A stretch of DNA of 64,000 nucleotides, from NCBI GenBank assembly GCA_002898215.1, contig BEIF01000001.1, positions 415,501 to 479,500 of the forward strand. The letters run 5' to 3'. The translations under genes were made by a program, and so were the position numbers. Origin of the DNA: a bacterium HR29. GTDB taxonomy: Bacteria > Chloroflexota > Dehalococcoidia > Tepidiformales > Tepidiformaceae. Positions 3,814 to 56,546 of the stretch are shown here, piece by piece (position 1 is the first letter of the stretch; each line of letters opens with the position of its first letter). The notes beneath the pieces were generated by a model. The model was not told the origin of the DNA. It was given only the letters and a program-made list of their open reading frames with translations, and made no database searches.

Positions 3814-5583
3814 TCACACCGCACATTCGCCCTCGCCCCGCTGCATCCGGTACAGCTCCAGACGATCCCAGTCGATGAAGAGGGCCCGGTTCTCCTCGTC
3901 GAACTCTCCGGGGATGCACAGGTCTTCGATGAGGCGCTCGAACGGGGCGAGGCCCACGCGGTCGACGAACTCCTCGAACCGCTCTCCCTCGAGGCGCTGT
4001 GCCTGGTAGAACTCGATGAAGCGCTGGACGGCGTCGGGCGCGCGCTTGGCCGGCAGCCGCACCTTCAGCTGCTTCGCGTACTGCAGTTGCCCGTCTTCGT
4101 ACCGCCCGCCAAGGAAGACGAGGTAGGCCGGCATCTCGTGCTCGCCGACCTTGATGGTCGCCCCGTGGAAGCCGATGGAGGCGATGTGGTGCTGCCCACA
4201 GCTGTTGGGGCAGCCGCTCATCTTGATATGGATGCGCCGGGTGAGCTCGTCGGTGATGCCCAGCGCGGTCACCCGCTCTTCGATCGCCCGGTTGAGCCCC
4301 ATCGAGCTCGTGATTCCCAGCTTGCACGAGTCGGTGCCCGGGCAACTCACCACGTCGGTGATCTCGTGTGCGCCGGGATTCCCCAGCCCGAGCTCCTTCA
4401 GCCGGCACCAAACCTCGTAGAGGGACTCGTCGCGTACCCAGCGCAGGAGGACGTTCTGCTGGATGGTCGTGCGAGCCCGGCCGCCGGCGTACTCGCGCAT
4501 GATGGCTGCCAGGCCCCGGAACTGCTCCGGGGTGAGGTCGCCGCGGCTCACCTTCACCTCGACCGTGCTGAAGCCCTGCTGTTTCTGCGGACGGACGTTC
4601 GAGGCGACGAACTCGGTGAACTCCCGGAGATCCCCGTTCGGCTGGGCATAGGCGGGGCGCTTCGGCGGCGCGGTCGCCTCCTCGTCGTCGAGGAAGAGGA
4701 GGCGGTCCGGTCGGAAGTCCTTCTCCCGGGCCCACTCCCCTTTCAGCTCCTCTTCGATCATCTCGAGGAACGCCTCCGGACCGATACGAGCGACGAGGAA
4801 CTTCAGGCGAGCCTTGTTCCGGTTCTTCCGCAGCTCATCCGAACGGTTGAAGATGCGGAGGATCGCCTCCGAGACCTTCAGGTATTCGTTCACGGAGACG
4901 AAATCGCGCACCTTCACGGCGTACCGCGGCATCGTGCTCAGGCCGCCGGCTGCGTACATCTCGAAGCCGCGCTCCCCGTCGCGCATCCGTGGGATGAATC
5001 CCAGGTCGTGCATCCCCGTGATCGCCACGTCACGGTCGTTCGAGCTGAAGGCGACCTTGAACTTGCGCGGGAGCGCCTGGGTGAGCGGGTTGCGCAGGAA
5101 GTAGCGAGCGAACGCACCGGCGTACGGTGTGGGGTCGAACGGCTCGTCGGGGTTCACGCCCGCCCACGGGTCACCGGTTACGTTGCGGACCGTGTTGCCG
5201 CAGGCCTCGCGCGTGGTGAGGCCGGCCTTCGCCAGGAAGCGGAGCACCTCGGGGGCCCTCGGGAGCGGGACATGGTGGAACTGCACGTTCTGCCGGGTGG
5301 TGATGTGCCCCTTCCGCAGGGGCGCGTACCGTTCCGCCACCTCGGCAAGGGCTTCGAACTGCGATGCCGTCACGCCGCCGAAGGGCAGCTTCACGCGGAT
5401 CATCTGGACGCCCGGCTGACGCTGGCCGTAGACGCCCTGCTTCAGCCGGAAGGGGATGTAGGTGTCCTCTCCGATCTCTCCCCGAAGGAATCGCAAGGTC
5501 TCGGTTTCGAAATCCTCCAACTCCTCCTCGAGGATGGGGAGGACGCGGCCCGGTTCATTGAGGTGGACAACGGCGCTGGCCAT
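3814..5583 (-). CDS. Ferredoxin-type sulfite reductase (nitrite/sulfite reductase hemoprotein)
   Basis: A 589-residue siroheme/4Fe-4S reductase carrying the six-electron reduction of sulfite to sulfide. Two ferredoxin-like half domains are followed by siroheme domains: an arginine-rich segment near residues 91-100 (KGHITTRQNV) and the cluster ligands in SCPGTDSCKLGI (Cys414, Cys420) and SGCPNSCGQHH (Cys458, Cys462). There is no flavin domain, so electrons probably come from ferredoxin. The family also contains nitrite reductases; I assign sulfite because the gene is divergent from APS reductase, APS kinase and ATP sulfurylase, while a second family member (12965-14500) lies beside a nitrite channel. 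The ATG is preceded by GGAGG. Confidence 0.88.
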   Translation of the reverse strand: MASAVVHLNEPGRVLPILEEELEDFETETLRFLRGEIGEDTYIPFRLKQGVYGQRQPGVQMIRVKLPFGGVTASQFEALAEVAERYAPLRKGHITTRQNVQFHHVPLPRAPEVLRFLAKAGLTTREACGNTVRNVTGDPWAGVNPDEPFDPTPYAGAFARYFLRNPLTQALPRKFKVAFSSNDRDVAITGMHDLGFIPRMRDGERGFEMYAAGGLSTMPRYAVKVRDFVSVNEYLKVSEAILRIFNRSDELRKNRNKARLKFLVARIGPEAFLEMIEEELKGEWAREKDFRPDRLLFLDDEEATAPPKRPAYAQPNGDLREFTEFVASNVRPQKQQGFSTVEVKVSRGDLTPEQFRGLAAIMREYAGGRARTTIQQNVLLRWVRDESLYEVWCRLKELGLGNPGAHEITDVVSCPGTDSCKLGITSSMGLNRAIEERVTALGITDELTRRIHIKMSGCPNSCGQHHIASIGFHGATIKVGEHEMPAYLVFLGGRYEDGQLQYAKQLKVRLPAKRAPDAVQRFIEFYQAQRLEGERFEEFVDRVGLAPFERLIEDLCIPGEFDEENRALFIDWDRLELYRMQRGEGECAV

Positions 5584-6429: not shown

Positions 6430-6996
6430 ATGAACGAATCGCAGGGCTTCGTCGTGTGGTTCACCGGGCTCTCCGGCGCCGGAAAATCGACCCTCGCCGA
6501 ACGACTCGCACCCATCCTTCGCGAGCGGGGGAGGAAAGTCGAGGTGCTGGACGGCGACGTCGTCCGCACCAACCTCTCCAAGGGGCTCGGCTTCTCCAAA
6601 GAGGACCGCGACACCAACATCCGACGCATCGGCTTCGTGGCGAACCTCCTCGCCAGGAACGGCGTGGCGGTCATCACCGCGGCCATCTCGCCCTACCGCG
6701 AGGTTCGCGACGAGGTGCGGCGCCTCGTCGAGGGCGACGGCTCGGTGTTCGTCGAGGTGTACGCTGCGGCGACCCTCGAGGAGTGCGAAGCGCGCGATGT
6801 GAAGGGGCTGTATGCCGAGGCTCGCGCTGGCAAGCGCCCGGGGTTCACCGGCATCGATGACCCCTACGAGCCGCCCCTGGCGCCGGAGGTCGTCTGCCAC
6901 ACGGGCAAGGAGTCCGTCGAGGAATGCCTGGCGCGTATCGTCCGCTACCTCGAATCGCGCGGTCTCATCCCCGTCGCTGCCGAGGTGCGGTCATGA
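6430..6996 (+). CDS. cysC: Adenylylsulfate (APS) kinase
   Basis: Phosphorylates APS to PAPS with ATP. The 188-residue length is typical for a stand-alone CysC. The Walker A loop is GLSGAGKST (residues 13-21), followed by the family sequence [11 protein letters not shown] that binds APS, and [16 protein letters not shown] near the C-terminus that forms the mobile lid. The ATG is preceded by GGAGG at 6420-6424. It lies 58 bases after the APS reductase gene and overlaps sat by 4 bases (ATGA), so the last two are likely translationally coupled. Confidence 0.97.
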
Positions 6997-8174
6997 AACG
7001 CGCTCTCGGCGAACCGTACGGCGGCGAACTCGTCGACCTCCTCGTCGGCGATGAGGAGCGGGACGAACTGCTCGCCGAAGCGCTCCGGCTGCCCACCATC
7101 CGCCTCGATTCCCGCACGCTCAGCGACCTCGAGCTCCTGACCGTCGGGGGCTACAGCCCGCTGCGCGGATTCATGACGGAGACCGAGTACCATTCCGTGG
7201 TCGAGGAGATGGTGCTCCCCAGCGGCCTGCCGTGGTCGATCCCGATCACGTTGGCCGTCCCGGAGGAAGCCGCTGCGGGGCTCGGTGTCGGCCGCCGTGT
7301 GGCACTCTGCGATGCGGCCGGCGACCCCCTCGCGGTGATGGATGTCGAGGACATCTTTCGGCGTGACAAACGCCGCGAGGCCCGCCTGGTGTACCGCACG
7401 GAGGACGAAGCCCACCCGGGAGTGGCGGCGCTCTACGCCTCGGGCGAGGTTGTCCTCGGTGGGCCTGTACGGGCGCTCCGCTTGCCCGAGCATCGGGACT
7501 TCCTTCCGTACCGTCTGACGCCCCGCGAGACGCGCGCCGTCTTCCGCGAGCGGGGCTGGCGGACCATCGTCGGGTTCCAAACGCGTAACCCGATCCACCG
7601 CGCGCACGAGTACCTCATCAAGGTCGCCCTCGAAAGCGTCGATGGTGCGCTCATCCACCCCCTCGTCGGCGACACCAAGGAGGACGACATCCCCGCCTCC
7701 ATCCGGATGCGGTGCTACGAGGTGCTCATCGACCGCTACTTCGTCAAGGAGCGGGTGCTCCTCGCCGTGATGCCCGCCGCGATGCGCTACGCAGGTCCCC
7801 GTGAGGCGATCTTCCACGCCATCATCCGCAAGAACTACGGTTGCACGCACTTCATCGTCGGTCGGGACCACGCCGGCGTCGGCAACTACTACGGCACCTA
7901 CGACGCCCAGCGCATCTTCGACGAAATCGACCTCGACCTCCTCGGCATCGAGCCCGTCTTCTTCGAGCACGCCTTCTGGTGCACGCGCACGGGGGCGATG
8001 GCGACGTCGAAGACGAGCCCCGCCGGGCCGGACGAACGGATCGTCCTCTCGGGCACGAAGGTGCGTGAGCTCCTCCGCGCAGGCCTTCCGCTTCCTCCGG
8101 AGTTCACCCGGCCGGAAGTGGCGGAGATCCTGCGGGAAGGGTTTCGGAATGGCGGCGGGCGCGACGGAGCGTGA
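6993..8174 (+). CDS. sat: Sulfate adenylyltransferase (ATP sulfurylase)
   Basis: Activates sulfate with ATP to give APS, the entry step of sulfate assimilation. The 393-residue protein is the homo-oligomeric Sat type, not CysDN. Key motifs are [11 protein letters not shown] (residues 196-206), the nucleotide-binding HxxH-type loop, and GRDHAGVG (290-297). I chose the ATG that overlaps the cysC stop (ATGA). A longer reading is open upstream but would lie wholly inside cysC. The 3' end overlaps the next gene by 26 bases, tying the transporter-like protein to this pathway. Confidence 0.96.
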
Positions 8175-29196: not shown

Positions 29197-29673
29197 ATGG
29201 ACAGGTCTCGGCTGCAACGGTTCTTCAACACCCCAGTTGGCGAGCTCGAGCTCGTAACTCCTCCGTTGGTAGCGCCCGAGACCCCGGTGCGAGACGCCGT
29301 CGCAGCGATGGCCGAGGGTGCCCAGTCGTGCGTCTTGGCGGTGCGCGACGGCGAGCTCGTGGGCATCTTCACCGAGCGCGATGTCCTGACGAAATGCATG
29401 GGGGAGGGGTTCGATTGGAGCCAACCCCTCGCCCAGGTGATGGCTCCGGGCGCGCCCCTCGTCATTCAGCGGAGCCGGCCCATCGGCGAGGCCGTGGCCC
29501 TGATGCGGAAGCACCGCTACCGCACGCTGCCGGTGGTCGACGAGTCGCGGAGGCTCGTCGGTCTGCTTCGCCTGCAGGAGCTGCTCCACTACCTGGCAGA
29601 GGCGTACCCCGAAGAGGTACTGAACATCCCTCCACGGCCGCACCAGGTCATGGAGACGCGGGAAGGTGGATAG
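29197..29673 (+). CDS. CBS-pair domain protein leading the kor operon
   Basis: A 158-residue protein made of two CBS motifs: VRDAVAAMAEGAQSCVLAVR with GIFTERDVLTK, then IGEAVALMRKHRYRTLPVVD with GLLRLQELL. CBS pairs bind adenosine nucleotides such as AMP, ATP or SAM and report energy state. The GIFTERDVLxK stretch is close to that of the CBS protein that closes the operon (32685-33245). The stop is 8 bases before korA, so it is likely co-transcribed. I chose the ATG over a TTG six codons upstream. An effect on Kor is inferred from context. Confidence 0.82.
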   Translation: MDRSRLQRFFNTPVGELELVTPPLVAPETPVRDAVAAMAEGAQSCVLAVRDGELVGIFTERDVLTKCMGEGFDWSQPLAQVMAPGAPLVIQRSRPIGEAVALMRKHRYRTLPVVDESRRLVGLLRLQELLHYLAEAYPEEVLNIPPRPHQVMETREGG

Positions 29674-29681
29674 CGAGGGCT

Positions 29682-31604
29682 ATGACGACCGAATCTCCCA
29701 CACGCCGCGAGGTCCGCATCGAAGAACGCGACCGGATGACCGTCCGTTTCGCGGGCGACTCCGGCGACGGGATGCAGCTCACCGGCACCCAGTTCACCCG
29801 AACGACGGTCATCTACGGCAACGACATCGCGACGCTCCCGGATTTCCCCGCTGAGATCCGCGCACCCCAGGGTTCGCTCCCCGGCGTTTCCGGGTTCCAG
29901 CTCTCCTTCGCCAGCACCGACATCAAGACGCCCGGCGACCAGCCCGATGCCCTGGTTGCCCTGAACCCCGCGGCGCTGCGCGTCAACATCGGCGACCTGA
30001 AGCCGGGCGGCCTCATCATCGTCGACGAAGCCGAGTTCACCCCCCAGAACCTGAAGAAGGCGGGCTACGAGTCGAACCCCCTCGAGGATGGCTCCCTCTC
30101 CGGGTACCAGGTCTTCAGGGTGAACATCACGAAGCAAACGGAAGAGGCGTTGGAGGGGCTCGACCTCCCGCCCAACCGGCGGTACCAGTCGCGCAACTTC
30201 TACGCCCTCGGGCTGGTGCTCTGGCTCTTCGACCGCACGCTCGACACGACGATCAAGTGGGCAACGGACCGCTTCAAGCGGAACCCCGAGATCCTGGAAG
30301 CCAATCTCCGCGCCCTGAAGGCGGGCTACGCCTTCGGCGAAACGACGGAGATGTTCCACGTCCGCTACGAAGTCCCGCCTGCCAAGGTCCAGCCCGGCCT
30401 CTACCGCCACATCAGCGGCAACGAGGCGACAGCGCTCGGCTTCCTCGCTGCCTCCGTGCTCTCCGGGCTCCCGCTCGTCTACGCCAGTTACCCGATCACG
30501 CCCGCCTCGGACATCCTGCACGAGCTCTCCAAGCTGAAGGCTTTCGGTGTGAAGACAATCCAGGCCGAAGACGAAATCGCGGCCATGTGCATGGCTATCG
30601 GGGCGGCGTACGCCGGCCACCTCGGCCTCACCGGCACGAGCGGGCCGGGCCTGGCGTTGAAGAGCGAGGCGCTGAACCTCGCGGTGATGGCCGAGCTGCC
30701 CGTGGTGGTGATCGACGTACAGCGCGCCGGCCCGAGCACGGGCATGCCCACGAAGACCGAGCAGGCCGACCTCCTCCAGGCGATGTTCGGTCGGAACGGG
30801 GACTCGCCCGTCGCCGTGGTCGCGCCGGCGACCCCCTCCGACTGCTTCACCATGGCCATCGAGGCCTTCCGCATCGCCCTGAAGTACATGGTTCCCGTTG
30901 TCTTCCTGAGCGAGGGCTACCTGGCGAACGGCTCCGAGCCCTGGCGGATCCCGTCGCTCGACGAGCTACCGCGAATCGAGTGGCACTACGCCGCCGAGCG
31001 TACGGATGGCGCCGATGGCAAGTTCAACCCGTACCAGCGCGACCCGGTGACCTTGGCGCGGCCGTGGGCGGTGCCCGGACAGCGGGGTCTCCAGCACCGC
31101 ATCGGCGGATTGGAAAAGTCCGGCGAGACGGGGGACATCAGCTACGACCCGGGCAACCACCACCGGATGACGCTGGCCCGGAAGGCAAAGGTGGAACGCA
31201 TCGTCCAGGACATCCCTCCCGCAAGCGTGGAGGGGCCGGAGGAGGGCGACCTCCTCGTCGTGGGGTGGGGCGGCACGTACGGTGCCATCAGCACGGCCGC
31301 GGAGAACGCCCGGAAGGCGGGAAAGAGCGTCGCGCACCTGCACCTCCGCTATTTGAACCCGATGCCGGCGAACGTCGGTGAGATCCTGAAGCGGTATCGG
31401 AAGGTGCTCGTGCCGGAGTTGAACACCGGCCAGCTCTGCTTGCTTCTGCGGGCGAAGTACCTGGTGGACGCGATTCCCTTCAACAAGATCGCCGGCCAGC
31501 CGTTCAAGATTGCGGAGATCGAGGCGAAGATCGACGAGGTCCTCGGGCTTCGTGGCCCCTACGAGCTCGAATTCGGCCCGGCCTCGGTGCTGGGTGGAGG
31601 GTGA
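29682..31604 (+). CDS. korA: 2-oxoacid:ferredoxin oxidoreductase, alpha subunit (fused gamma-alpha)
   Basis: Part of an enzyme that oxidises a 2-oxoacid (2-oxoglutarate or pyruvate) with CoA to acyl-CoA, reducing ferredoxin. The 640-residue form has the gamma domain first (RFAGDSGDGMQLTG, residues 22-35) and the alpha domain from about 245, with YPITPASDILHE (270-281) that binds the substrate, and GTSGPGLALKSEAL. The ATG lies 8 bases after the CBS gene. KorB follows after 3 bases. It probably feeds the ferredoxin pool that could also serve the sulfite and nitrite reductases. The 2-oxoglutarate type is favoured by similarity to two-subunit KorAB enzymes; specificity is not proven. Confidence 0.93.
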   Translation: MTTESPTRREVRIEERDRMTVRFAGDSGDGMQLTGTQFTRTTVIYGNDIATLPDFPAEIRAPQGSLPGVSGFQLSFASTDIKTPGDQPDALVALNPAALRVNIGDLKPGGLIIVDEAEFTPQNLKKAGYESNPLEDGSLSGYQVFRVNITKQTEEALEGLDLPPNRRYQSRNFYALGLVLWLFDRTLDTTIKWATDRFKRNPEILEANLRALKAGYAFGETTEMFHVRYEVPPAKVQPGLYRHISGNEATALGFLAASVLSGLPLVYASYPITPASDILHELSKLKAFGVKTIQAEDEIAAMCMAIGAAYAGHLGLTGTSGPGLALKSEALNLAVMAELPVVVIDVQRAGPSTGMPTKTEQADLLQAMFGRNGDSPVAVVAPATPSDCFTMAIEAFRIALKYMVPVVFLSEGYLANGSEPWRIPSLDELPRIEWHYAAERTDGADGKFNPYQRDPVTLARPWAVPGQRGLQHRIGGLEKSGETGDISYDPGNHHRMTLARKAKVERIVQDIPPASVEGPEEGDLLVVGWGGTYGAISTAAENARKAGKSVAHLHLRYLNPMPANVGEILKRYRKVLVPELNTGQLCLLLRAKYLVDAIPFNKIAGQPFKIAEIEAKIDEVLGLRGPYELEFGPASVLGGG

Positions 31605-31607
31605 CAG

Positions 31608-32648
31608 ATGAGCACGACATCGGCAAAGCCTGCTGCCATCGTCGGAGAGGAGCTGCCTGTTCTCACTCGGAAGGATTTCGTCTCCGACCAAGAGGTGCGC
31701 TGGTGCCCGGGCTGCGGGGATTACGCCATCCTCGCCCAGATGCAGAAGATGCTTCCCGAGCTGCGGATCCCGCGGGAGAACATCGTCTTCATCAGCGGCA
31801 TCGGCTGCTCCAGCCGCTTCCCCTACTACGTGGAGACGTTCGGCTTCCACACCATCCACGGCCGGGCGCCGGCCATCGCCACGGGTGTGAAGACGGCGCG
31901 CCCGGAGCTCACGGTCTTCGTCGTCACGGGCGATGGCGACGGCCTCAGCATCGGCGGCAACCACCTGCTCCACGTGATGCGGCGCAACGTCGACGTCACG
32001 ATCGTGCTCTTCAACAACCGCATCTACGGCCTCACGAAAGGCCAGTACTCGCCGACATCGGAATTCGGGAAGATCACCAAATCATCCCCGTTCGGCACGA
32101 CGGAGCGTCCGCTCAACCCCATCAAGATCGCCCTTGCAGCAGGCGCCACGTTCGTTGCCCGCTCCGTGGACCGCGACACGAAGCACTTGGAGGAGATGCT
32201 CTACCTGGCGGCGACGCATAAAGGGGTCTCCTTCGTCGAAGTCTTCCAGAATTGCAACATCTTCAACGATGGTGCCTTTGCCGCCTTCGCTGAGAAGGAA
32301 GTTCGCCAGGACCGGATGCTGTACCTCGAGCATGGAAAGCCGCTCCGCTTCGGCAAGGAGCGCCAGCACGGTATCCGCCTGAATGGCTTCAAGCCCGAAA
32401 TCGTCGAGAACGCACAGAGCGACGAGGGTCTTTGGGTCCACGACGCCAAGTCAGCATCCATCGCTGCGGCGATGGCCCTCGCGGAGATGGACTATCCGGA
32501 GTACCCGGTGCCGGTGGGCGTGTTCCGCGACGTCGACGCGCCGACCTACGAGGAGCTCGTCGCCAAGCAGATCGAGGACGCCCGTGCTCGCGGAGAGCCG
32601 GACTTCGCCGCGGTGCTGCAAGGGCCGGAGACCTGGCAGGTGGAGTGA
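31608..32648 (+). CDS. korB: 2-oxoacid:ferredoxin oxidoreductase, beta subunit
   Basis: The thiamine-diphosphate- and 4Fe-4S-binding partner of KorA. The 346-residue protein has cluster cysteines in WCPGCGDYA (Cys33, Cys36), GIGCSSR (Cys67) and a later QNCNIFND. The thiamine motif is GDGDG (108-112) followed by FNNRIYGLTKGQ (135-146). Both are complete, and the length matches two-subunit bacterial and archaeal enzymes. It starts 3 bases after korA and is followed 36 bases later by the zinc-ribbon/CBS gene. Confidence 0.93.
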   Translation: MSTTSAKPAAIVGEELPVLTRKDFVSDQEVRWCPGCGDYAILAQMQKMLPELRIPRENIVFISGIGCSSRFPYYVETFGFHTIHGRAPAIATGVKTARPELTVFVVTGDGDGLSIGGNHLLHVMRRNVDVTIVLFNNRIYGLTKGQYSPTSEFGKITKSSPFGTTERPLNPIKIALAAGATFVARSVDRDTKHLEEMLYLAATHKGVSFVEVFQNCNIFNDGAFAAFAEKEVRQDRMLYLEHGKPLRFGKERQHGIRLNGFKPEIVENAQSDEGLWVHDAKSASIAAAMALAEMDYPEYPVPVGVFRDVDAPTYEELVAKQIEDARARGEPDFAAVLQGPETWQVE

Positions 32649-32684
32649 CGGGACTGCAGCCACACTCGGGCGGAAGGAGACGCC

Positions 32685-33245
32685 ATGGCTGACACGGAGC
32701 CTGTGAAGGCTGGCAACCTGGTCGCCTGCCCGCTCTGCGGGGAGTGGAACATCGAGGGGGCGGACCACTGCGAAAACTGCCTCGCCGATTTGGCGGCCCT
32801 CGACGTCCCCGTCACCGCTCAACCGGGCGCCGAGACCGAGTTCAACACGCCCCTCACGTCCCTCCGTGTGCTGCGGCCGGTCGTCGTCGCACCGGAAACC
32901 CCCGTCCGTGACGTCGTCGCCCGCCTCCGCGACGAGCCCGACACCGCGGCCGTCGTGATGCGCGGGAGCACGGTCGTGGGCATCTTCACCGAACGGGATG
33001 TCCTGAAGCGCATCGTCGGCCGACCGGAGCGGCTCGACGACCCGGTGGAGCGGTGGATGACCCCCGACCCCGTCATCCTGCGCGACTCCGACACCATCGC
33101 TGTGGGCCTCCACAAGATGGCCGTGGGAGGGTTCCGCCATCTCCCGCTGGTGCACGGCGACGAGTTGGTAGGCGTCGTTTCCGGGAGCGACTTGCTCATT
33201 TGGTTCCTCATCCACTACTTCGAGGGCGTCCCCGCCGGCTCGTAG
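32685..33245 (+). CDS. Zinc-ribbon and CBS-pair protein closing the kor operon
   Basis: A 186-residue protein with an N-terminal zinc ribbon (CPLCGEWNIEGADHCENC, residues 15-32) and two CBS motifs (VRDVVARLRDEPDTAAVVMR with GIFTERDVLKR, then HKMAVGGFRHLPLV). The ATG at 32685 has GGAAGGAGA upstream. The first CBS half is very like that of the operon's opening gene, differing by the added zinc ribbon. This zinc-ribbon/CBS layout is seen in unnamed proteins of several phyla. Position after korAB suggests adenylate control or assembly help for Kor, but this is inference. Confidence 0.82.
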   Translation: MADTEPVKAGNLVACPLCGEWNIEGADHCENCLADLAALDVPVTAQPGAETEFNTPLTSLRVLRPVVVAPETPVRDVVARLRDEPDTAAVVMRGSTVVGIFTERDVLKRIVGRPERLDDPVERWMTPDPVILRDSDTIAVGLHKMAVGGFRHLPLVHGDELVGVVSGSDLLIWFLIHYFEGVPAGS

Positions 33246-33353: not shown

Positions 33354-34256
33354 GTGGAGCTGGCGCAGATCGAAGCGTTTCTGGCCGCCGCCGAATGCGG
33401 CAGCTTCAGCCGCGCCGCCGAGATGCTGCACGTCGCCCAGCCCTCCCTCTCGAACCGCATCCAGTCCCTCGAGCGCGAAGTTGGCCAAGTCCTCTTCGAG
33501 CGCATGGGCCGTGGCGTCCGCCTTACCGACGCGGGGAGGTGGTTCCTCCCCTACGCCCAGCGCGCCAAGCGCTCGCTCGAAGATGGCCTCCGTGTCCTTC
33601 AGGGCGCGCGCGAAGGCACCGCCGGCCGGCTCTCCATCGGAACCGCTCCGGCGGTCGGCACCTACGTACTCCCCCGGCTCCTGAAGGTGTTCTGCGACCG
33701 GCACCCCGGGGTCGACGTGAGTGTGCGCACGGGCCACTCCGACGAAGTGCTGCAAATGGTGCTCGAAGATGACGTCCAGATGGGGTTCGGGCGGCCCATC
33801 TCCCATCCCGACGTGCACACGGTCACCCTCTTCCGCGACGAGCTGGTGCTCGTCGTCTCCTCGCACCACCGGTACGCGAAGCGGGGTCAAGTGACGGTCG
33901 AAGAGCTGGCCAAAGAGTCCCTCATCCTCTTCGACCGAGACTCCAGCTACTATTCGATGATCCTCAACCTCTTCCGCGATGTGGGCATGGTGCCCGAGCA
34001 GCGCATGCAGCTCGATTCCATCGAGGCGACCAAGAAGATGGTGGAAGCGAACCTCGGCGTTGCGCTTCTCCCCGAGGTCTCCGTGGACCGTGAGATCAAG
34101 CTGGGAACCCTGCACAAGGTCCACATCGCTGCTGCCGAGCCGGTGACCCGCGAGATCGCCGTCATGTATCGGCGGCACAAGCCGCAGACGGGCCTCATGT
34201 CCGCCTTCCTCGACTTGCTTTCGCAGGTGTACCGCGTCCAGCTCCCCGCAGCCTGA
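33354..34256 (+). CDS. LysR family transcriptional regulator
   Basis: A 300-residue LysR-type protein with an N-terminal winged helix (residues 1-60: AECGSFSRAAEMLHVAQPSL is the recognition region) and a two-lobe effector domain (GTAPAVGTYVLPRLLKVF, then LVLVVSSHHRY). The ligand is not known. GTG start with GGGGGT upstream. It lies 108 bases after the kor operon on the same strand; the intergenic stretch contains the dyad-like ATACAT (33270s) and ATGTAC, a possible self-operator. It could control kor or its neighbours, but LysR proteins most often control divergent genes and none is present here. Confidence 0.9.
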   Translation: MELAQIEAFLAAAECGSFSRAAEMLHVAQPSLSNRIQSLEREVGQVLFERMGRGVRLTDAGRWFLPYAQRAKRSLEDGLRVLQGAREGTAGRLSIGTAPAVGTYVLPRLLKVFCDRHPGVDVSVRTGHSDEVLQMVLEDDVQMGFGRPISHPDVHTVTLFRDELVLVVSSHHRYAKRGQVTVEELAKESLILFDRDSSYYSMILNLFRDVGMVPEQRMQLDSIEATKKMVEANLGVALLPEVSVDREIKLGTLHKVHIAAAEPVTREIAVMYRRHKPQTGLMSAFLDLLSQVYRVQLPAA

Positions 34257-53854: not shown

Positions 53855-55180
53855 TCACGGGATGCTCGGGTCGAAGTCGCGGGCGATGTGCCCCAGGGCC
53901 TCGAAACGGGCGTACTCCTCGTCGCTGAAGCCGAGGAGCTGCTTGTAGACGTACTCGTTGTGCTCTCCCAGGGTCACGGGCGGCTGATAGAACTCCACCG
54001 GCGTCTCAGGGAACTGCCAGAGCGGTCCCACGTACTCGTGCGTCCCAGCGCCCTCCACGGTCTGCGTCCGGAAGAAGTTGCGCGCGCGAAGGTGTGGGTC
54101 ATCGAACATGCGCGACGCTTCGAGCACCGGTGCCGCCGGAACTCCGTGGGCCTGGAGGAGATGCATGAGCTCGTAGTCGTCCCGTTCGCGGGTGAATTCC
54201 GCGATGCGGGCGTCGATTTCGGCCGCGTGAGCCGCTCGTCCTTCGTTCGTCGCGAAGCGGGGGTCGCGCGCCCACTCGGGATTCCCCATGGCTTCCACCA
54301 GTCCCTGCCATTGTTCGTCGTTCTCGACGGAGATGGCGACCCAGCGGTCGTCGCAGGTTTCGGCTGTGCCGGGCGACTTCGCCGGATAGACGTTGCAGGG
54401 GTACCGTCCGAAGATGTCGCGGTTGCCGATGGGCGTGAGGAGGCGGCCGTTCATGGTGTACTCCATGATGGCCTGCGTGAACATGGCGGCCGCATTTTCG
54501 GCCTGGGCGATCTCAATGAGCTGGCCCTCGCCCGTCTTCTCACGGTGCCAGAGTGCCGCCATGACGGCGAAGGCTCCCTGGGCTCCCGCTAGGTAGTCCC
54601 CGGAATAGATAGCCGTGTTGGAAGAGGGGTCGGCGTCTTCGTAGCCGCGGAGGAGCGTGTGTCCCATCACGGCTTCGAGGTGAATCCCAAGGGCCCGTGC
54701 CTCCGCGTACGGCCCGCTACTCCCGTAGGCCGGCACGCGCACGAAGATGATCCGCTCGTTCGCTTCGCGCAGCCAGTCGTAGGTGATGCCGAGCTTCTCC
54801 AGCGTCCCCGTGGCGTTGTTCTCGTAGACGACGTCGGAGATGGCCACGAGCCGCCGGAGCACGTCTTTCCCTTCCGGGGTCCGGAGGTCGACCGTGAAGC
54901 TCTTCTTGTTTCGGTAGAGCGAGACGAAGGTCGGGCAGTAGTTCCAAGGACGTTCGCCGGGGACGTTATTGGGGTAGCCGCCGCCCCAGGCCGGAGCCAG
55001 CATCAGGTAGGCCTGGGGCGGACGTGCCATGGCCCCTCGCGTCATTGGCTGCCACACGTGCGGGTTTTCGGGCTTGATGACTTCGGCGCCGAGGTCGGCG
55101 AGCAGCATGGTGGCGAAGGGGCCTGCCCACACCACGCAGAGGTCGATGACGCGGATTCCCTCGAGCGGTTTCCGGCTCAT
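53855..55180 (-). CDS. Class III (CaiB/BaiF) CoA-transferase, second of a pair
   Basis: A 441-residue enzyme of the family III CoA-transferases, which move CoA between carboxylic acids without covalent acetyl intermediates in the way of class I. It opens with GIRVIDLCVVWAGPFATMLL, and the CoA/anhydride loop is in GTLEKLGITYDWLREANERI and YGSSGPYAE. Its ATG overlaps the stop of the first pair member (ATGA). Two different transferases in tandem suggest a two-substrate system or a heteromer like Mct or Bai; the substrate is not readable. acsA follows 68 bases later. Confidence 0.87.
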   Translation of the reverse strand: MSRKPLEGIRVIDLCVVWAGPFATMLLADLGAEVIKPENPHVWQPMTRGAMARPPQAYLMLAPAWGGGYPNNVPGERPWNYCPTFVSLYRNKKSFTVDLRTPEGKDVLRRLVAISDVVYENNATGTLEKLGITYDWLREANERIIFVRVPAYGSSGPYAEARALGIHLEAVMGHTLLRGYEDADPSSNTAIYSGDYLAGAQGAFAVMAALWHREKTGEGQLIEIAQAENAAAMFTQAIMEYTMNGRLLTPIGNRDIFGRYPCNVYPAKSPGTAETCDDRWVAISVENDEQWQGLVEAMGNPEWARDPRFATNEGRAAHAAEIDARIAEFTRERDDYELMHLLQAHGVPAAPVLEASRMFDDPHLRARNFFRTQTVEGAGTHEYVGPLWQFPETPVEFYQPPVTLGEHNEYVYKQLLGFSDEEYARFEALGHIARDFDPSIP

Positions 55181-56394
55181 GGCACGCCTCCCTTCTGAGC
55201 GGCGGTCACGACTTCGGCGATGATGGCTTCGGGGAGGTTACATTCGCGCAGCACCTCCTCGGTGTGCTGTCCGAGGAGCGGAGCCGGCCGGCGCAGCTGC
55301 CAGCCTCCCTTCGGCATGATGAACGGCCGCCCGGGGATGGTGACCTTCCCCATCACCGGATGTTCCACCGTTGTCCAGAAGCCGCGGCCGCGGAAGTGGT
55401 CGTCGTTGACGAGGTCCTCCATGGTGAAGAGCGGACCGCACAACACTTTGGCTCGTCGCGCCTCTTCCCAAATCTCCCGCTTGGTGCGCTGCAGGCACCA
55501 CTCGAGGAAGTGGACGTTCCACTCCTCGACGATCTGAGGGTTCAGCCGCGTCGCCGGGTCGGTGTACTTCGGGTCGGTGGCCCACTCCGGATAGCCGAGC
55601 ATCTCGAGGACTCGGTCGTAACGGATGCTCGCGTTGGTGAAGTCGACATACCCGTCGGCGCAGGGGTAGATGCCACCGGGCATCCCGCTGCTACGGGAGG
55701 CAGCGCGCAGCGTCTTCCGCTTCGAATACTGGTAGGCGATGGCCGTGGCGTGCCGGCGGTCGACTCCCCCGAAGTGCGTTTCGGCGAGGGAGACGTCGAC
55801 GCGCTGAGCGATGCCGAATCGCTTCGCCGCCCACAGGGCACCCATGCAGGCAGCGGCGATGGCCGAGCCCGATTCGAACAGGGCGGCAGTTCCGAACATC
55901 TTCACCGGCTCGCGATCCGTCTCGCCCATCGAATACATCTCGCCGGCGAAGCCGTAGATCACCAGCTCCGAAGCCAGGTAGTCGCGGTAGGGACCGGTCT
56001 GCCCGAAGTTCGAAACGGAGACCATCGGCGCGCGCGGATTCACCCGCTGGAAGAAGTCCCAGCCGATGCCGAGCTTTTCGATGGTGCCCGGTTTGAAGCT
56101 CTCCACGACGAGGTGAGCGCGGGCGGCGATGGAGGCGAGCGCCTCGCGGCCTGCTTCGGTCCGGAGGTCGAGCACCACGGAGCGCTTGTTGCAGTTGAGG
56201 TAGAAGAACGTCCCGGATTTCTCCGGGTGGGGATCGTCGCCCAGGAACGGGCCGAGTCGTCGCGCCGGGTCACCCCAAGGCGGCTCGATCTTGATGACGT
56301 CGGCGCCGAAATCCGCCAATAACTTGGTCGCGTACGGCCCAGCGATGTGCTGGGTCAGGTCGAGGACGACGACGTCGTCGAGCGCTTGGACCAC
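55177..56394 (-). CDS. Class III (CaiB/BaiF) CoA-transferase, first of a pair
   Basis: A 405-residue class III CoA-transferase: DVVVLDLTQHIAGPYATKLL, EPPWGDPARRL, FKPGTIEKLGIGWD and NFGQTGPYRD are the usual segments. The start is GTG at 56394, with GGGAGGGG 7 bases upstream; a longer frame begins 69 bases earlier but lacks a site. It is only distantly like the next gene. Coupled by ATGA. With acsA the set can make and swap CoA esters. Confidence 0.87.
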   Translation of the reverse strand: MVQALDDVVVLDLTQHIAGPYATKLLADFGADVIKIEPPWGDPARRLGPFLGDDPHPEKSGTFFYLNCNKRSVVLDLRTEAGREALASIAARAHLVVESFKPGTIEKLGIGWDFFQRVNPRAPMVSVSNFGQTGPYRDYLASELVIYGFAGEMYSMGETDREPVKMFGTAALFESGSAIAAACMGALWAAKRFGIAQRVDVSLAETHFGGVDRRHATAIAYQYSKRKTLRAASRSSGMPGGIYPCADGYVDFTNASIRYDRVLEMLGYPEWATDPKYTDPATRLNPQIVEEWNVHFLEWCLQRTKREIWEEARRAKVLCGPLFTMEDLVNDDHFRGRGFWTTVEHPVMGKVTIPGRPFIMPKGGWQLRRPAPLLGQHTEEVLRECNLPEAIIAEVVTAAQKGGVP

Positions 56395-56546
56395 TGGCAG
56401 CCCCTCCCGTACGGTCGCTCTGCAGGCAGGCACTGTATACCAGATTCCGTCCGCTCGCCGCACCCCCGAGGGCGTTGCCGGCCCTTGCGCGTGGCGACGG
56501 GTGGGGAGAGAGTGGAGGTCGTAACCCCGAGGAAGGGGCGAGGGCG

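Follow-up and report, generated by a model that had tools for sequence, protein, structure and literature searches.

The present analysis concerns a 64,000-nucleotide stretch of the genome of bacterium HR29 (Chloroflexota; contig BEIF01000001.1, positions 415,501 to 479,500 of the forward strand), hereafter the window, in which the genes korA and korB of a ferredoxin-dependent 2-oxoacid oxidoreductase are flanked by two genes encoding proteins with paired CBS domains, designated CBS1 and CBS2. Comparison with related loci makes it rather likely that KorAB is a 2-oxoglutarate:ferredoxin oxidoreductase provided with a dedicated, two-protein, adenylate-sensing CBS module. For the broader proposal, that in seven or more phyla the two CBS proteins form a heteromeric energy-charge gate setting the rate or direction of KorAB by adenylate occupancy, the chances appear evenly balanced. 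The four open reading frames (ORFs) are all on the + strand, with intergenic gaps of 8, 3 and 36 bases, and match exactly the order CBS, korA, korB, zinc-ribbon-CBS and the spacing given in an earlier note on this DNA. They are the following:

29197..29673, + strand: CBS1, stand-alone CBS pair heading the cluster, 158 amino acids (Pfam PF00571, two copies)
29682..31604, + strand: korA, fused gamma-alpha subunit of a 2-oxoacid:ferredoxin oxidoreductase with the YPITP motif, 640 amino acids (TIGR03710)
31608..32648, + strand: korB, thiamine pyrophosphate (TPP) / [4Fe-4S] beta subunit, 346 amino acids (TIGR02177)
32685..33245, + strand: CBS2, zinc ribbon plus CBS pair, 186 amino acids (Pfam CBS, two copies)

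Linkage of the CBS genes to korAB

The window genome (2.34 Mb, 97% complete) holds about nine ORFs with CBS domains. The only short stand-alone ones are the two beside korAB, with open frames of 171 and 198 amino acids, and all the others have at least 388 amino acids. Because these are the only short stand-alone CBS ORFs of the genome and the same order recurs across phyla, their position beside korAB is not ascribed to chance.

KorA relatives were gathered by KorA similarity alone, and were therefore selected without regard to CBS genes; a set of 590 candidate stretches gave 80 named loci, to which the Chloroflexota genomes were added. Of the 101 loci whose KorA falls in the clade of the window protein, 30 have one CBS gene or more; these loci belong to Chloroflexota, Acidobacteriota, Omnitrophota, Planctomycetota, Elusimicrobiota, Bdellovibrionota and Neomarinimicrobiota (Fidelibacterota). 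The order CBS1-korA-korB-CBS2 was found at 22 of the 101 loci and in all these phyla except Neomarinimicrobiota; the rest of the CBS-bearing loci comprise three with upstream CBS1 and KorB-fused CBS2, and others that are partial or cut by a contig end. For the earlier note, a neighbourhood confined to close relatives would have told against its idea; with at least seven phyla represented, the neighbourhood is not so confined. Variant orders were CBS2-CBS1-korA-korB (L229, L230) and korA-korB followed by a CBS1-type gene (L233-L235, L238, L240, L241, L243, L218). CBS linkage requires at least 13 changes on the KorA tree (17 on a larger tree), which indicates that it has been repeatedly gained or lost.

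Searches within single phyla have extended this distribution. In the phylum to which the Omnitrophota locus L046 belongs, full-length CBS1 was detected in 23 of 145 genomes, with a second CBS located 3.4-3.6 kb beyond it wherever the contig was long enough; nine of ten further regions from this phylum carry the full order and the tenth ends at a contig edge inside korB. CBS1 relatives above the search threshold were found in 36/246 Planctomycetota, 3/120 Elusimicrobiota and 22/199 Acidobacteriota genomes, a few of these matches being CBS proteins away from korAB, and extra CBS-korAB loci were found in the three phyla.

Among 301 Chloroflexota genomes, CBS1 and CBS2 were present in an identical set of 13, and 13/13 combine both proteins with a korAB of this clade. 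A distinct score gap separates them from all other CBS proteins of Chloroflexota, with 161-197 bits for CBS1 with its C-terminal tail and 178-226 bits for CBS2, or 107-136 bits when it is fused to KorB. Neither protein was found in the surveyed CBS-less KorA relatives (e.g. G292, G219, G067 and G271).

As regards fusions and REARRANGEMENTS, CBS2 is encoded in frame at the C-terminus of KorB in Chloroflexota (Anaerolineae-type loci L048, L063, L121 and L195), Planctomycetota (L237, L244 and L245) and Acidobacteriota (L223), with five changes by parsimony on the KorA tree. The zinc ribbon is kept only in L223 and is gone in the other fusions. Partners that have lost linkage were also found. CBS2 lies 48-91 kb from CBS1-korAB in three related Acidobacteriota (G940, G982 and G913), and when CBS1 or a CBS1-CBS2 tandem is located away from korAB, a same-clade korA is present elsewhere in the genome (G883, G888, G651, G673 and, in pieces, G459); the sole exception among the checked genomes of this type was G511, in which no same-clade korA was found. 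Tandem CBS1-CBS2-like pairs without nearby korAB were observed at L191:4426-5851 (G309), L222:4481-5495 (G888), L246 and L248, again with same-clade korA elsewhere, and such tandems suggest that CBS1 and CBS2 would act as a unit.

The earlier proposal that the CBS pair is dedicated to Kor is strongly supported by its conservation across phyla, identical presence and absence, fusions and unlinked partners in the same genome. The association of CBS1 and CBS2 with this korAB clade is strong, and the weightiest evidence is provided by the C-terminal tail of CBS1, the KorB-CBS2 fusions and the linkage to sucCD in other genomes.

The two CBS families and the likely reaction of KorAB

CBS1 and CBS2 share 36% identity across 132 amino acids (E 4e-22), and ortholog alignments of 41 rows from seven phyla (CBS1) and 31 rows (CBS2) show that they can be assigned to two distinct orthologous families. 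An NCBIfam search yielded no family-level model for either. Both contain two CBS domains, with Pfam E 1.7e-21 and 76.7 bits for CBS1 and E 1e-16 and 61.4 bits for CBS2, against a PF00571 cut-off of 24 bits. The conserved elements located in the window are the following:

29362..29382, + strand: CBS1 site 1 ligand motif GIFTERD, residues 56-62, with conservation taken from the CBS1 alignment
29608..29670, + strand: CBS1 C-terminal tail PEEVLNIPPRPHQVMETREGG-COOH, residues 138-158, with conservation taken from the CBS1 alignment
32727..32780, + strand: CBS2 zinc ribbon CPLCGEWNIEGADHCENC, residues 15-32, with cysteine conservation taken from the CBS2 alignment
32979..32999, + strand: CBS2 site 1 ligand motif GIFTERD, residues 99-105, with S/T and D in 30/31 orthologs
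33171..33191, + strand: CBS2 site 2 ligand motif GVVSGSD, residues 163-169, with S/T and D/N in 23/31 orthologs

The ligand motif G-h-x-[ST]-x-x-[DN] was found at site 1 of CBS1 and at both sites of CBS2, and not at site 2 of CBS1. At CBS1 site 1 the glycine and the S/T position are each kept in 41/41 orthologs, and S/T plus D/N in 36/41. The earlier note had drawn attention to a GIFTERDVLxK segment shared by the two proteins. The segment is indeed present in both, but it corresponds to the generic CBS ligand motif and was dropped as a sign of a special relationship between CBS1 and CBS2.

The tail of CBS1 follows the pattern NLPPRPHQ...EG[GA] across the family, with P138 and N143 conserved in 38/41 orthologs each, P145 and P146 in 36/41 each and G157 in 41/41; the final residue is G or A in all 41. 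In the AlphaFold model of CBS1 the CBS pair is confident (predicted local distance difference test, pLDDT, 93; predicted template modelling score, pTM, 0.82) and the end of the tail is of low confidence (about 72). The model matches crystal structures of CBS pairs with template modelling (TM) scores of 0.6-0.77, including the AMP-bound 2rif and CBSX2-AMP. The zinc ribbon, as noted earlier, is restricted to the second CBS protein: its four cysteines (C15, C18, C29 and C32, in the arrangement CxxC-x10-CxxC at the N-terminus) are invariant in 31/31 CBS2 orthologs and absent from CBS1. An R-H-x-P motif is almost invariant in CBS2.

With respect to the oxidoreductase, KorA contains the Pfam domains POR, POR_N and PFOR_II and clearly exceeds the curated NCBIfam cut-off of TIGR03710 (659.4 vs 482.75 bits); KorB contains TPP_enzyme_C and narrowly passes that of TIGR02177 (264.5 vs 261.9 bits). 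By sequence, the nearest solved structure to KorA is 6n2n_A, from the 2-oxoglutarate:ferredoxin oxidoreductase of Magnetococcus marinus, and for the KorB portion in the model of a natural KorB-CBS2 fusion the top match is 6n2n_B (E 2e-31). The Kor cluster has the succinyl-CoA synthetase genes sucCD as neighbours at L044 and L228 in Elusimicrobiota and at L245 in Planctomycetota (in the order sucC-sucD-CBS1-korA-korB.CBS2), and in the window genome no sucA-type 2-oxoglutarate dehydrogenase E1 scored above the curated cut-off. The two-subunit KorAB of Mycobacterium tuberculosis, which is not among the rows of the KorA tree built here, converts 2-oxoglutarate to succinyl-CoA by experiment (PMC2773412). 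Because of several indirect signs, namely the 6n2n matches, the sucCD neighbours, the lack of a sucA above the cut-off and the activity of the M. tuberculosis enzyme, the substrate is very probably 2-oxoglutarate, with succinyl-CoA as product.

In the Pirellulales genome G310, a CBS2 ortholog is located about 120 bases downstream of sucD, within a sucC-sucD cluster (L192:1401-4925), and korAB (L193) is accompanied by CBS1 only; the two CBS genes are thus divided between two consecutive steps of the tricarboxylic acid (TCA) cycle.

KorA Tyr267, beside the YPITP motif, was considered as a mark of CBS linkage (Tyr in 39/40 CBS-linked vs 20/64 CBS-less KorA proteins). This candidate was dropped, as independent tree pairs gave about three for, none against and seven without difference, which gives no support for a link other than common descent.

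Proposed mechanism and alternative explanations

In the mechanism proposed here, CBS1 and CBS2 would be dedicated accessory subunits of Kor, combining into a heteromeric CBS (Bateman) module by which adenine nucleotides are sensed. Very probably the two proteins would be physically complexed with KorAB, which the natural KorB-CBS2 fusions support indirectly. CBS2 would dock by the C-terminus of KorB via its zinc ribbon, and several lineages would have exchanged this ribbon tether for covalent fusion to KorB; since the ribbon is absent in most fusions, its simplest role would be the tethering of CBS2 to KorB. The conserved tail of CBS1 may serve as an arm touching Kor or CBS2. Kor activity would be adjusted by ligand binding at the three canonical sites that are retained (one in CBS1 and two in CBS2), the ligand being probably an adenylate. 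From the conservation of adenylate-type sites we infer that Kor may be gated by the energy state, as the earlier note had suggested. Concerning the sign of the regulation, our guess is a tentative one, and rather doubtful: a module loaded with AMP/ADP would permit, and one loaded with ATP would restrain, the oxidation of 2-oxoglutarate to succinyl-CoA.

Several observations weigh against this proposal. Same-clade KorA proteins without CBS neighbours are frequent (24/24 Actinomycetota rows and most of the Bacteroidota and Ignavibacteriota), so that the CBS module is optional. The Neomarinimicrobiota korAB locus has a single CBS gene, and a CBS1-CBS2 heteromer is therefore not obligatory; several Planctomycetota korAB loci likewise have a single CBS gene. 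Site 2 of CBS1 (GLLRLQE) is degenerate, with the ligand motif in 2/41 orthologs. In many genomes the sequence encoding the terminal E-G-[GA] of CBS1 extends into the ribosome-binding region of korA or its start, and a check at the DNA level has revealed CBS1 stops overlapping korA starts (GCATGA, GTGA) in many Chloroflexota; translation signals may thus contribute part of the conservation of this end. The Gly-[Gly/Ala] end is nevertheless kept where korA is not next (L062, L065) or is distant (L121, L081). The AlphaFold model of a KorB-CBS2 fusion is confident for each of the two domains and has a disordered linker between them (pTM 0.65), with no defined docking or mutual orientation of CBS2 and KorB. 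Finally, the pairwise distance matrices of the four proteins are correlated, which speaks for the association (r 0.90 for CBS1-CBS2 and for KorA-KorB, 0.85 for KorB-CBS2, 0.84 for KorB-CBS1, 0.80 for KorA-CBS2 and 0.76 for KorA-CBS1), but these are raw values that include shared species history.

Among the alternatives, the one that best survives retains the same module and gating with another ligand, namely S-adenosylmethionine (SAM) or methylthioadenosine (MTA), diadenosine tetraphosphate (Ap4A), cyclic di-AMP, NAD(P)(H) or acyl-CoA, instead of the adenylate ratio, so that the module would signal methylation status, stress or the CoA pool and not energy charge. CBS pairs take several adenosyl ligands, the structural neighbours including MJ0100 with SAM/MTA and AcuB with Ap4A, and the G-h-x-[ST]-x-x-[DN] motif reports an adenosine/ribose site only. 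Nothing specific was found to count against this explanation, but AMP/ATP are the commonest class of CBS ligands and Kor plus succinyl-CoA synthetase constitute an ATP-yielding node, and we consider another ligand fairly unlikely.

It is improbable, to a greater degree, that CBS1 and CBS2 are assembly or stability factors of KorAB, acting in cluster or TPP loading or in oxygen protection, with structural or vestigial nucleotide sites. The degenerate second site of CBS1, the many lineages that do without the module and the flexible CBS2-KorB tether with its disordered linker would all fit such a function, but the ligand motifs are kept across phyla (30/31 and 23/31 in CBS2, 36/41 in CBS1) and a permanent fusion to KorB is better suited to a subunit than to a transient chaperone. 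The invariant four cysteines of CBS2 beside a ferredoxin-dependent enzyme could also denote an electron-transfer or ferredoxin-docking subunit, which is very improbable given that the CxxC-x10-CxxC spacing is that of a short zinc ribbon, and that most KorB-CBS2 fusions lack the cysteines, which are thus replaceable by covalent tethering. In rubredoxins the spacer between the cysteine pairs is much longer than in the CBS2 ribbon. That common CBS genes merely hitch-hiked with korAB is scarcely credible: these genomes are rich in CBS genes and KorA itself has been transferred between phyla, but CBS1 and CBS2 show identical presence and absence (13/301 genomes), several fusions, a family-specific tail and ribbon, and same-clade korA that still accompanies the unlinked CBS partners.

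Comparison with known systems and other observations

The cluster shares with known KorAB enzymes (M. marinus OGOR 6n2n, M. tuberculosis Rv2455c-Rv2454c and Sulfolobus tokodaii OFOR) the gamma-alpha and beta subunits, the YPITP motif, the TPP domains and the cysteine motifs WCPGCG and GIGCS. The kor operon of M. tuberculosis contains Rv2453c/Rv2452c in place of the CBS genes (PMC2773412), and structure searches gave no solved structure joining this type of oxidoreductase to a CBS protein or module.

AcuB, encoded in the acu operon of Bacillus, stands alone as a CBS protein, responds to energy charge and, via a partner protein that it binds, governs a step that forms acyl-CoA (PMC13121692). As an operon-encoded CBS-pair protein and a structural neighbour of the CBS module, it would be a close working precedent for the control of Kor by CBS1 and CBS2. 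However, AcuB combines an N-terminal Bateman domain with a C-terminal ACT domain, and its effect is indirect, by way of the deacetylase AcuC, whereas here two different CBS proteins, distinguished by a ribbon and a tail, stand beside the oxidoreductase. The Pfam search found an ACT domain in neither CBS1 nor CBS2, which places them outside the AcuB type.

The chloroplast proteins CBSX1 and CBSX2 of plants are also small and composed only of a CBS pair, and their AMP-bound structures are among the matches, but they have no ribbon and no linkage to Kor; their partners are thioredoxins. Allostery by adenosine nucleotides through CBS modules is known in IMPDH, AMPK-gamma/Snf4, CBS-PPase and MgtE, where the module is located inside the enzyme or a complex partner and none of the targets is a 2-oxoacid:ferredoxin oxidoreductase; the closest counterpart to such built-in modules is provided by the KorB-CBS2 fusions. 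In the archaeal protein of PDB entry 3ghd, CBS and a domain resembling a Zn ribbon are likewise joined; its weak sequence match to CBS2 spans one CBS domain only (E 7.5e-6).

A full-text literature search, which left most subscription journals outside its reach and in one wording may miss 'oxoglutarate:ferredoxin', returned no description of CBS proteins with Kor/OFOR, in agreement with the earlier statement that no regulator pair of this kind had been described for Kor; nor was a described allosteric regulator of Kor found in the searchable literature. CBS allostery is a well-known principle, and what appears previously undescribed in that literature is a dedicated CBS pair on Kor. Kor is a meeting point of the TCA cycle with low-potential electron flow and may operate in principle in either direction, and a dedicated CBS pair would be a point at which the energy state controls a TCA cycle based on ferredoxin, in phyla that are largely uncultured. 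Two unnamed protein families gain a testable annotation, and the natural KorB-CBS2 fusion provides a version that is directly purifiable and assayable.

Other arrangements were observed around the oxidoreductase genes. In three loci of the same clade, korA and korB are about 1.2-1.4 kb apart, with an apparent inserted gene (L037:7824-9010, L091:7824-9233 and L226:7339-8552), and a Bacteroidetes metagenome-assembled genome contains a tandem pair of complete korAB copies and no CBS genes (L052:1005-7060). A more distant KorA/KorB-like oxidoreductase of the same superfamily adjoins the CBS-korAB cluster at L204:6426-8499 and L195:2520-4499. In the window, a gene for a LysR-type regulator (33354-34256, + strand) starts 108 bases past CBS2 on the same strand. 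A nitrite/sulfite reductase (3814-5583, - strand) near an ATP sulfurylase (6924-8174, + strand) likely marks a sulfate-assimilation region, and genes of CoA-transferase family III, two of them side by side, are located at 53855-56463 (- strand).

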